Source: Chthoniobacteraceae bacterium (GTDB taxonomy: Bacteria > Verrucomicrobiota > Verrucomicrobiia > Chthoniobacterales > Chthoniobacteraceae). From it: 64,000 bases of DNA. Location of the stretch: assembly GCA_028293625.1 (NCBI GenBank), contig JAQGOL010000030.1, positions 186,001-250,000 of the forward strand, read 5' to 3'. Positions 37,908 to 60,435 of this stretch are shown in pieces. The notes under the pieces were generated by a model. The model saw only the letters and a list, made by a program, of their open reading frames with translations. It had not been told where the DNA came from and did not search any database. Made by a program: the position numbers and the translations under genes. Each line of letters starts with the position of its first letter. Position 1 is the stretch's first letter.

Positions 37908-38717
37908 TCAGATGGTCTGGCTCAGGAACCCGCCATCCACGCGCAGATCAATCCCGGTGACGAAGCTGGCGGCGCGTGCGCTGGCAAGAAAGACGGCGGC
38001 CCCAATCAGTTCACTTGAATCACCAAAGCGTCCCATCGGCGTGTGGCCAAGGATCGCGTTGGTGCGGGCAGTGGGCGAGCCATCCTCGTTAAAGAGGAGC
38101 TTGCGGTTCTGTTCCGCGGGAAAAAAACCGGGTGTCAGCGAATTTACGCGCACCCCTTTGGTGGCCCATTCTCTCGAAAGAAATTGAGTCAGGCTCAGAA
38201 CGGCTGCTTTCGATGCCGAATACGTCACGACACGGGAGAGCGGCAGATGCGCCGAAACACTCGCAATATTAATGATGCTCCCCTTCCCGCGTGTACACAT
38301 GGCCGGACCAAATTCCTGACACGGCAACAATGCTCCTCCCACGAGGTTCAAATCGAAGTTCGCACGCCAGTCTTCGGCCGTGATTGATTCAAAAGAGCGC
38401 TCCGGCGTGACCGTGACTTTCGGATCGTTACCGCCCGCCGCATTAACCAAAATGGACGGCGCCCCCAGCTCCGCAGCGATGGCCTGATGCGCGGCCGCAA
38501 GACTCGATCGGTCAATCGCGTCGGTTGAAAAGAACCGCGCTTTCCCGCCCGCTTCAATGATCTTGTTCACACGAGCCTCACCACGCTCCCGATTCCGGCC
38601 AAGAATGGCAATGGCCGCGCCCGCGGCTGCGAGCCCTTCGGCCAGCGCGCCTCCAAGAACGCCAGTGGCGCCTATAACGACGGCGACTTCATCGGAAAGA
38701 TCAAAAAGATTGCTCAT
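37908..38717 (-). CDS. SDR family oxidoreductase (aldonate/mannonate type)
   Basis: A classical 269-aa short-chain dehydrogenase: NAD(P) motif VVIGATGVLGGALAEGL (~13-29), NAG-like ILVNAAGG (~88-95), catalytic Ser in IINIASVSAH (~147-156) with YSASK (about 167-171), and C-terminal VTGIDLRVDGG. The insert RSFESITAEDW and the PGFFPAEQNR loop resemble mannonate/fructuronate-type SDRs. First gene of a three-gene operon with the LarA-like enzyme and the kinase. Reduction of a keto-acid sugar or oxidation of an aldonate is inferred. Confidence 0.85.
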   Translation of the reverse strand: MSNLFDLSDEVAVVIGATGVLGGALAEGLAAAGAAIAILGRNRERGEARVNKIIEAGGKARFFSTDAIDRSSLAAAHQAIAAELGAPSILVNAAGGNDPKVTVTPERSFESITAEDWRANFDLNLVGGALLPCQEFGPAMCTRGKGSIINIASVSAHLPLSRVVTYSASKAAVLSLTQFLSREWATKGVRVNSLTPGFFPAEQNRKLLFNEDGSPTARTNAILGHTPMGRFGDSSELIGAAVFLASARAASFVTGIDLRVDGGFLSQTI

Positions 38718-38765: not shown

Positions 38766-38905
38766 CTTCTCCCTCTCTCCCCCTCTTAATCTTAATCTTA
38801 TCTTAATCTTAATCGCTGCCTTTCGTAACACATATCAAATCGGCCACAGAACGCCGTGAGATTAAGATTACGATTACGATTAAGAGTAAGAGAAGAGGAA
38901 GAGAG
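38766..38905. repeat. Interspersed hexamer hairpin, locus A
   Basis: A pyrimidine tract (38766-38785) leads into five TTAATC-like units (38786-38814; the third is TTATC). After 45 nt of ordinary sequence come GATTAA, GATTAC, GATTAC, GATTAA (38860-38883) and a purine tract (38884-38905). The two arms are imperfect reverse complements, so the unit can fold into a long hairpin. It fills the spacer between the SDR gene start and the ABC permease stop. Two more copies of this plan occur at 57.1 and 60.4 kb. Confidence 0.8.
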
Positions 38906-38915
38906 CCATCCGGCT

Positions 38916-39683
38916 TTATGCGTTGACCGTTCCCCAGCGCCGGTGAAGGAAGCGTTCCCAGGGAGAGAACAAAATCTTATCGGCGAGCAACCCGACCAAA
39001 ACGATCACAAGCATGATGCCAAAGACCTGATCGATTGCGTTGAGATCGCGCCCGAAGTTGAGCAATTGGCCAAGACCAAACCCGGTCAGGATCGTGACAT
39101 AGATTTCCGCGGCCATGAGCGAACGCCAGGCGAACGCCCAGCCTTGTTTGATCCCGCTGACAATGAAAGGAAGCGAAGCGGGCAGAATGACCTGAATCCA
39201 CGTATGCATTCCGCGGGAACCCATCGTGCGGGCGGCGCGGACATACATGGGCGGCACATTTCGCACGCCGTTGTCAGTGGCAAGGGCGACGGACCAGACG
39301 GTTCCCATCACGACGACAAAAAGCATCGCTGTTTCGGTCTGTCCGAACCAGAGCAGAGCCGGTGGCACCCAGCAGACGCTCGGCAGAGTCTGCAGCCCGA
39401 GACCGGTGACGCCAATCGTGTCGCTGGCCCATTGGAAACGCGCGGTGATCAATCCCAATGGGACGCCGGTCACGACACCGATCAAGTAACCGATCATCAG
39501 GCGCCGGGTGGTCACGCCGAGAGCTTCAAACAGAGTGCGATCCTCCACCGCACTCACCAGATATTCCCAAACCCGCATCGGGGCAGGGAAAAGAACCGGA
39601 GACCAGCGGCCCGACATCGCAAGCAAATGCCAGACCCCGATGAGGCCCGCGAAAAAAAGCAAGGCAGTGAACGCGCGTTTCAT
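38916..39683 (-). CDS. ABC transporter permease (SsuC/TauC type)
   Basis: A 255-aa, six-helix permease of the nitrate/sulfonate/taurine class, with the coupling EAA loop in YVRAARTMGSRGMHTWIQVI (~155-175) and the helix pair AFTALLFFAGLIGVWHLLAM at the N-terminus. It starts immediately after the ATPase stop codon (TAG then ATG). With the ATPase and binding protein encoded upstream it should form an importer for an aliphatic sulfonate, taurine or a related oxyanion. Confidence 0.9.
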   Translation of the reverse strand: MKRAFTALLFFAGLIGVWHLLAMSGRWSPVLFPAPMRVWEYLVSAVEDRTLFEALGVTTRRLMIGYLIGVVTGVPLGLITARFQWASDTIGVTGLGLQTLPSVCWVPPALLWFGQTETAMLFVVVMGTVWSVALATDNGVRNVPPMYVRAARTMGSRGMHTWIQVILPASLPFIVSGIKQGWAFAWRSLMAAEIYVTILTGFGLGQLLNFGRDLNAIDQVFGIMLVIVLVGLLADKILFSPWERFLHRRWGTVNA

Positions 39684-57004: not shown

Positions 57005-57110
57005 GAGCCGTGAAAAAGAGGATGAACCTTTATAAAACCGGTTCGCTTGACAAGCCAACTCTCGAAAATCGCCTCATTTTCTTGGCCGGGGCGGCGTATG
57101 CCCTCTGCCA

Positions 57111-57203
57111 TTCTTCTCTTAATCGTCCTTCCCCACCCGGCACCGGCCGGACGATTACGATTACGATTACGATTACGAGGGAGAGAGAAGGACGGAGGAG
57201 AGG
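57111..57203. repeat. Interspersed hexamer hairpin, locus B
   Basis: TTCTTCTC plus TTAATC (57111-57124) and GTCC face, after a short C/G-rich spacer (with CCGGCACCGGCCGG), GGAC and four perfect GATTAC units (57153-57176), then a purine tract (57177-57203). AATCGTCC pairs with GGACGATT, giving a real stem. The right arm enters the argD gene: the argD stop TAA (57175-57173) is read from a GTAATC unit on the minus strand. Confidence 0.8.
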
Positions 57204-58498
57204 ATTGCCACCGCTTCGTCTATCTCAGACTGGCTCACATTGAGCGGCGGCAGCCAGCGCACGGCTTGCGCACCGGAAGGCACCGAGAGAAGGCCCGCTT
57301 CATGCAATGCGTTGACGAGGTAAAGCGCGGCGGTTTGCCCCTTTGGAACGGCAACGCGCTCCGCAAAATCATCCGCCAATTCAAACGCAAGCAGGAGCCC
57401 GATGCCGCGCACCTCTTTAATCAGGGGTGACTCCAGCTTCTCGATGGCCGCTTTTGCATACGCACCCATTACCCGGGCGTTTTCAAGCATCCCCTCTTCT
57501 TCGATGATGGAAAGCACCTCGTTTGCGCCTGTGGAAACCAAGGGCGTCCCGCCGAACGTCGTTCCGTGGGAGCCGGGTCCAAGCAGATCGCAAAGAGGCA
57601 ATGTTGCGCCACCCTTGAGATGTACAAGGCGGTCACTGACCCAGATGGCGCCGAGCGGAAAGCCGCCCGCAATCCCTTTGGCCCAACTAATGGCATCTGG
57701 AAGCACTTCATCGGTGCCAAGGATCGACTTCCAGCCGCACCAATCGCCGGTGCGCCCGAGGCCGCATTGGACTTCATCGAACATCAACAAAAGATTATGC
57801 CGGTCGCAGAGTCCCCGCGCCTGACGCAGAAAATCGGCATCGGCGATATAAATGCCACGCTCGCCCTGCACGGGCTCAAGCAAGATAGCGACTGTTCCCG
57901 GCTCCTGTACGGCAGCCAGAAGAGCAGGCGAATCGTTAAAAGGAACGTAAGTGAACCCTTGCACCATCGGCTCGAATCCTTTTTTCACCTTCTCCTGTCC
58001 GGTGGCCGCGATGCCGGCCAGGGTGCGTCCGTGAAAAGAACCGAGCATGGTGATGATCTCGTGCCGGCTGGAGCACGGCTCGATCATTTCGCCTACGGAA
58101 TGGCGCGCCGCGGGCGGTTCGCCTTCGTTGCCGAATTTGCGAGCCAGCTTATAAAGCGCCTCATTTGCCTCCGCACCGCTATTGCAGAAAAAGACTTTGC
58201 CAGGCGCGCCGACACAATTGACGAGCCGTTCGGCCAGCACTGCCTGTGGCCGGGTATAATAAAGGTTGGACGTATGCACCAACGATGCCATCTGTTCGCA
58301 CATGACCCGAACCACCCGGGGATGACAATGGCCTACGGAGGTCACCGCGATACCGGCGCCGAAATCGAGGTAGCGTTTGGAAGCTTCATCCCAAACGTAA
58401 CTCCCTTCCCCTCGGGCAAGCTGAAGATCAAAGCGCCCATAAGTGGGAATGACGTAGCGGTCGTAAAGTTCGCGTGTGGAAAGGGTGCTGGCAGACAT
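57173..58498 (-). CDS. argD: Acetylornithine aminotransferase
   Basis: A 441-aa class III PLP aminotransferase: DFGAGIAVTSVGHCHPRV, FFCNSGAEANEALYKLAR, LGSFHGRTLAGIAATGQEK, then LLMFDEVQCGLGRTG and the PLP lysine in AISWAKGIAGGFPLGA (~270). The overall pattern fits ArgD, which makes N-acetylornithine; a broader ornithine or succinylornithine role is possible. It is ~40 aa longer than E. coli ArgD, with an insert rich in Pro/His (GEPPAARHSVGEMIEPCSSR). The last codons and the stop come from hexamer repeat locus B. Confidence 0.9.
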   Translation of the reverse strand: MSASTLSTRELYDRYVIPTYGRFDLQLARGEGSYVWDEASKRYLDFGAGIAVTSVGHCHPRVVRVMCEQMASLVHTSNLYYTRPQAVLAERLVNCVGAPGKVFFCNSGAEANEALYKLARKFGNEGEPPAARHSVGEMIEPCSSRHEIITMLGSFHGRTLAGIAATGQEKVKKGFEPMVQGFTYVPFNDSPALLAAVQEPGTVAILLEPVQGERGIYIADADFLRQARGLCDRHNLLLMFDEVQCGLGRTGDWCGWKSILGTDEVLPDAISWAKGIAGGFPLGAIWVSDRLVHLKGGATLPLCDLLGPGSHGTTFGGTPLVSTGANEVLSIIEEEGMLENARVMGAYAKAAIEKLESPLIKEVRGIGLLLAFELADDFAERVAVPKGQTAALYLVNALHEAGLLSVPSGAQAVRWLPPLNVSQSEIDEAVAILSSVLLSPS

Positions 58499-60368: not shown

Positions 60369-60435
60369 TTTCTCCACCTCGTAATCGTAATCGGATCCGG
60401 AAAGGCGGGAGCGGATTAAGTATACGAAGAAGAGG
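60369..60435. repeat. Interspersed hexamer hairpin, locus C
   Basis: TTTCTCCACCTC leads into two GTAATC units (60381-60392). After a 21-nt spacer come GATTAA (60414-60419), GTATACGAAG and AAGAGGA. The arms are imperfect reverse complements with the same plan as loci A and B, but with the fewest units. It lies between the divergent starts of recF and hisS, so it cannot simply be a terminator. Confidence 0.7.

Follow-up and report, generated by a model that had tools for sequence, protein, structure and literature searches.

Intergenic hexamer-repeat hairpins in a Chthoniobacteraceae genome as probable ORF-less derivatives of elements encoding a PF05635 four-helix-bundle protein

What kind of sequence forms a palindrome of short tandem repeats between two genes of a Chthoniobacteraceae bacterium, and from what does it derive? 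The structure in question, hairpin A, lies in the window analysed here (the whole stretch of 64,000 nucleotides) and is enclosed by a co-directional gene pair coding for an ABC permease and a short-chain dehydrogenase (Table 1). On the plus strand, positions 38783-38815 read CTCTTAATCTTAATCTTATCTTAATCTTAATCG, with a pyrimidine tract 5' of them from ~38768, and the right arm at 38859-38903 reads AGATTAAGATTACGATTACGATTAAGAGTAAGAGAAGAGGAAGAG. An initial annotation, made from the sequence alone, had described hexamer arms that form imperfect inverted repeats around some 45 nt, and this structure is real: the stem folds on either strand with a z of about -6.2, and 0/200 shuffles folded equally well. 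The hexamer plan also stood, but the unit proposed at the time, TTAATC/GATTAM, was too narrow, as the units are better written GATTAN/TAATCN, some being GAGTAN, and C. flavus (Chthoniobacter flavus) carries a 7-nt TTAATCN. Two more copies of the same plan, placed outside genes or at a gene edge, were likewise real, the second of them weaker (Table 1). The right arm of the stronger copy (57153) extends into the 3' end of a gene for an aminotransferase (57173-58498, minus strand), whose stop codon near 57173 falls within an arm.

Table 1. Hairpin A, its neighbouring genes and its sister copies (positions in the window).
Feature	Position	Strand	Basis or remark
Left arm of hairpin A: pyrimidine tract, then (TTAATC/TCTTAT)n	38768-38815	+	pairs with right arm in minimum-energy fold, z -6.2
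Loop of hairpin A, about 43-45 nt, without ORF	38816-38858	.	sequence, fold
Right arm of hairpin A: (GATTAM)n, then GAGTAA and purine tract	38859-38904	+	sequence, fold
ABC transporter permease (BPD_transp_1), transcriptionally upstream of hairpin A, stop codon ~12 nt away	38916-39683	-	gene call
Short-chain dehydrogenase/reductase, transcriptionally downstream of hairpin A	37908-38717	-	gene call
Second copy: CTCTTAATCG, loop, (GATTAC)4, purine tract	57110-57190	+	pattern match
Third, weaker copy: TCGTAATCGTAATC, loop, GATTAAG..	60379-60432	+	pattern match; divergent genes on both sides (RecF/SMC-like ATPase, HisRS-like)

Three familiar classes had already been set aside in the initial annotation, and we agree on each. 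CRISPR arrays consist of direct repeats of 23-50 nt with unique spacers, whereas the units here are 6 nt long, follow each other without spacers and stand in inverted arms. Intrinsic terminators have a G+C-rich stem followed by a T-run, in contrast to these arms, which are A+T-rich and give way to a purine tract on either strand. Nor are the copies ends of insertion sequences. A scan of the window against Rfam returned tRNA only, and the copies that are informative for the identity of the family lie outside the window.

Across the genome, 127 exact GATTAMGATTAM 12-mers were found as opposed to 0 for the reversed pattern, and in the window the same motif with at most one mismatch gave 10 matches, against 0.34 expected and no more than 3 in 100 shuffles. 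The strict two-armed pattern matched 35 times in the genome (overlapping matches counted, the loci being fewer), and we regard hairpin A as one of roughly 60 ORF-less copies. In the stretches fetched, all 55 clusters have the same arm order, TAATC on the left and GATTA on the right, and 44 have an opposite partner nearby. Merely 2/50 clusters scored for context lie inside a predicted gene, while 26 occupy tandem gaps, 11 convergent and 9 divergent ones. The earlier description as a dispersed, intergenic, palindromic family able to form an RNA hairpin is supported. In a scan of named genomes, the same inverted arms were seen, among the matches listed, in Verrucomicrobiota, Lentisphaerae, Planctomycetota, Desulfobacteraceae, Ignavibacteria and others.

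The position of the hairpins relative to genes could be taken to indicate domesticated regulatory structures at gene ends, either bidirectional terminators or stabilisers of mRNA 3' ends, since 20/25 of the copies in tandem gaps are closer to the neighbour's 3' end than to a 5' start and the stems are strong on both strands. The T-run is absent, however, 9/46 copies lie in divergent gaps, and congeners lack the hairpin at the same junctions (in G001 and G003 the gene pair that encloses hairpin A is present with no hairpin between). The spread is also patchy between genera, with only C. flavus (G018) and G026 rich in hairpins among 57 relatives. We therefore consider a regulatory origin unlikely, although regulation could be a secondary role of the hairpins.

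The initial annotation had named REP/MITE as a possible type and pointed to a co-occurring RAYT-type transposase as something to look for; a REP-type family with such a RAYT (Y1) transposase is not supported. The hairpins do share with REP/BIME palindromes (PMC3733652) that they are short, intergenic, present in high copy number and patchy between relatives, and Y1_Tnp genes exist in this genome. Yet Y1_Tnp was found in 29/34 relatives, nearly all of them hairpin-free and without any correlation, the copies examined in this genome (G000) and in C. flavus have no adjoining hexamer arrays, tandem hexamer arms are foreign to REP anatomy, and the ORF between the arms is of a different kind, belonging to PF05635. 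Spread of these hairpins by RAYT is accordingly very improbable.

Environmental bacteria commonly carry short, unexplained genes for PF05635 proteins, which have been read as ribosomal S23 proteins, as CRISPR accessories or as partners of diversity-generating retroelements (DGRs). We propose that the hairpins are probably ORF-less derivatives of elements with the plan (short repeat)n – four-helix-bundle ORF (PF05635) – (inverted repeat)n. PF05635 matches this genome of 6.8 Mb at one place only, C26:471001-471162, where hexamer arms at 470972 and 471233-471262, 250 nt apart, enclose a broken ORF; it reads QLDRASTSVPLNIAEDHGR and starts no more than about 20 nt from the left arm. This remnant is internally deleted and fits best to the DQLDRASTS subfamily (55% identity, E 2.8e-13). 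At the same locus (L055 7960-8300, corresponding to C26:470960-471300), a 10-nt GGTCTACCAG at the ORF start has an inverted copy, CTGGTAGACC, just beyond the right arm, possibly a foldback template switch that lengthened the palindrome. PF05635 is the family of the 23S rRNA intervening-sequence protein, with the fold of the DGR protein Avd. In a structure search, the predicted fold of the protein matched 2GSC and 2RLD (S23/IVP family), and next Avd of the DGR reverse transcriptase. Full-length relatives match TIGR02436 at 57-89 bits, while the copies in the window have no ORF.

Most PF05635 ORFs elsewhere lie between arrays of short degenerate repeats in inverted orientation; the repeat sequence differs by subfamily, the arm types seen being GTTGAGA, GTTCTTTG, GTTTTCAGTG, TTGGACAA, GTTCTC and TAATCN/GATTAN. 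A flanking inverted-repeat score of at least 15 was reached at 63/82 PF05635 loci (77%), compared with 0.08% of 6000 random positions, and in 57/63 folded elements at least 50% of the 5' arm is paired with the 3' arm; terminal inverted repeats that form a long stem are thus a feature of most of these loci as well as of the window copy. Both the ORF-bearing copies and those of the window sit between protein genes and not in rRNA helices. Among relatives of the protein, none was found on viral contigs, and only six, distant ones in cyanobacteria and Gemmatirosa, are on plasmids. A search with a small first model found no PF05635 ORF near the short-loop hairpins of 118 named stretches, as expected from a pattern that demanded short loops. 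A unit of the 3' arm (GATTAG, GATTAA or GAGTAA) often provides the stop codon at which the four-helix-bundle ORF ends (L306, L309, L312, L313, L316-L325).

The sequence of the arms follows the type of protein between them. Across non-orthologous loci, pairs with homologous flanks being left out, protein similarity and arm similarity are correlated (Mantel r 0.586, against a maximum of 0.147 in 2000 permutations), and TAATCN/GATTAN arms go with the subfamily signature EKLxVYQ..W..DQLDRASTSIPLNIAEGNGK in Verrucomicrobiota and Desulfococcaceae HSG9 alike. The short hairpins show the same association: of 10 genomes with a TAATC-armed ORF, 9 have TAATC hairpins (the sole exception, G335, has a TAATC-armed element and no short hairpin), as opposed to 0/7 of those in which this protein subfamily comes with GTTCTC or GACAAAG arms and 0/20 of those without such a protein (0/27 non-TAATC-armed genomes overall; reversed-pattern control 0), in a comparison that excludes G000, G018 and G026 and in which the arm type of G249 and G281 comes from one side or from partial arms. 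Moreover, arms pair better with their own partner than with swapped ones, both at an orthologous Opitutaceae site (4/20000 permutations) and among TAATC elements (0/20000); among the hairpins of this genome the effect is consistent but small (15.3 vs 13.2; 0/20000). Complementarity therefore exceeds what a shared consensus gives, and is kept while the sequence drifts.

This coupling bears on two further explanations. Slippage of a microsatellite, or template switching, within a chance palindrome would call for no element at all and agrees with the variable number of units and with the foldback copy at L055, whose two parts lie just within and just beyond the arms of the deleted element. It is nevertheless hard to reconcile with a GATTAN unit that recurs in several phyla, with an inverted order without exception and with hairpins tied to one type of protein and arm (9/10 versus 0/27 genomes); we consider it very improbable, while slippage may well shape the arms. 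The second explanation regards the hairpins as stand-alone MITEs on which an ordinary DDE transposase acts in trans, and the four-helix-bundle ORF as a passenger. Hairpins do lie within IS-like inverted ends such as GAATGGCGCTAAGTTAAG in other genomes (L153, L104, L112), about a dozen copies here lie within a larger repeat of 170-190 bp, and many ORF-less copies have loops in common; as in MITEs, short non-coding derivatives of a larger element have partly conserved loops. Unlike in MITEs, the parent element has PF05635 but no transposase between its arms. In addition, the arm unit is constant while the ends vary by lineage, the arm sequence tracks the four-helix-bundle subfamily, which is not expected of a passenger, and no target duplication was seen, congener sites being only ~73% identical and such empty sites not sufficing to define one. 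On balance we think this origin unlikely.

As to the surroundings of individual copies, the 170-190 bp repeat of this genome (L034, L050, L046, L035, L066, L033) carries GGCGCGCCAAAACATTGGGAACACC and GGAAGAAGCTCACCCTGAAAGCGCGC at its two sides and is a distinct dispersed family with a conserved loop, CTCCGGRCACAGGGAG. The IS-like inverted ends, within or adjoining which hairpins were found (L153, L104, L112, L120), read GAATGGCGCTAAGTTAAG/CTTAACTTAGCGCCATTC. C. flavus has the repeated TTAATCN of the 7-nt arm version (L210, L211, L212, L213) alongside 6-nt arms in one genome.

Orthologous junctions document the passage from an ORF-bearing to an ORF-less state. The operon junction at which this genome carries its PF05635 remnant is empty in 19 relatives (gap of 4-70 nt) and holds an intact element in G026, G035, G007 and G033 (545-563 nt); in this genome it measures 350 nt, with ~45 codons gone from the middle of the ORF, and in C. 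flavus a 50-nt gap contains an ORF-less hexamer remnant. A second junction, with GTTCTTTG arms, has the ORF in G020, G359, G012 and G032, is ORF-less in G030, and is empty in G024, G027, G361, G034 and others. The short form can thus arise through loss at a site. Loss of an ORF on site can account for some hairpins without being established for every one of them, hairpin A included, where G001 and G003 are simply empty and no ORF-bearing ancestor is demonstrated; the loops common to several copies suggest that the short form also spreads. A junction shared by several Opitutaceae-like genera (L317-L321, L323-L325) retains an ORF-bearing element with GTTCTC or TTTCTC arms, i.e., long vertical retention.

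How would such elements be maintained? The ORF is co-oriented with both neighbours at 49 loci and opposed to both at 5 (p 4e-10), the bias to be expected if the insert depends on read-through transcription. At somewhat less than even chances, we favour an RNA-stem element that would be carried by read-through, cut from the mRNA by RNase III, and would encode a protein recognising its own arms. Such an element would rely on read-through transcription of the host operon; its paired arms would form a long RNA stem, a putative substrate of RNase III as in 23S rRNA intervening sequences, and by leaving the mRNA through this cut the insert would burden the host little. The four-helix-bundle protein, by recognising its own kind of arm, may promote or protect the spread of the element, through a transposition step if there is one, and ORF-less hairpins, having retained the stem, could survive or multiply as non-autonomous copies. 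Within its family, hairpins are most numerous in C. flavus, a genome that has no TAATC-armed ORF, its two PF05635 genes having GTTGATA and TGCGGAATG arms, and the single TAATC-armed ORF of this genome is broken; from these two genomes it appears that the hairpins either outlived a source ORF that disappeared once they had spread, or move without it. The 7-nt units of C. flavus and one-armed arrays in G012 do not fit the overall picture either. It is conceivable, but improbable, that the four-helix-bundle protein, being Avd-like, recognises its own arms of 6-8 nt units and, with the help of a reverse transcriptase or polymerase of the host, re-creates them by templated, telomere-like addition. 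If true, this would explain the match of arm and protein, the joint change of both arms and the unit lengths of 6, 7 and 8, and would represent a distinct class of mobile element.

The read-through model draws on the 23S rRNA intervening sequence (IVS) of Coxiella burnetii, an insert of 428 nt that has been called selfish; its S23 ORF occupies the loop, and RNase III cuts the 28-bp stem (PMC4990558). Short IVS without an ORF are also known (PMC2672173). The IVS and the present elements have in common a terminal inverted-repeat stem, a PF05635-family ORF in the loop, a length of about 430-550 nt, and ORF-bearing as well as ORF-less forms, and from this shared plan we infer an mRNA-borne counterpart. 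In contrast to the IVS, the elements described here are found at gene junctions outside rRNA helices, their arms are tandem repeats of 6-8 nt that track the protein subfamily, and there are many copies per genome; excision by RNase III, known for the IVS, is predicted here from computed arm pairing. The likeness between PF05635 and Avd has been pointed out before (PMC10053308), and the predicted four-helix fold is indeed that of Avd (4DWL, 8UB7), but identity is 12-15% and the elements here have neither a reverse transcriptase nor a variable repeat. Genes labelled 23S_rRNA_IVP have been reported in cas loci (PMC3936711, PMC10910872), also between operon genes such as cmr3/cmr2, where they were read as a possible CRISPR function (PMC3936711); our data suggest that these may be operon-junction insertions in general.

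While the IVS, PF05635, IVP genes in cas loci and the likeness to Avd are already known, arms specific to the type of protein and ORF-less hairpins at gene junctions are undescribed in the literature found by limited text searches, preprints aside. If PF05635 proteins are the coding part of an intergenic stem-loop element whose short-repeat arms are cognate to them, a single explanation would cover their spread, their presence in cas loci and other operons, and the hexamer-octamer hairpins. The coupling of arm and protein also hints at the target of the PF05635 protein, for which its own arm repeat is a direct and testable guess.

Two minor observations concern variants of this architecture. 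G012 has single-armed arrays of CAAAGAAC or GTTCTTGG near stop codons, with no inverted partner (L405, L409, L410). Finally, at L329, L331 and L332, and in G132, G240 and G290, two PF05635-like domains ~400 nt apart share one open frame of 250-300 aa that arms do not flank; it may encode a double four-helix-bundle protein that has been domesticated.
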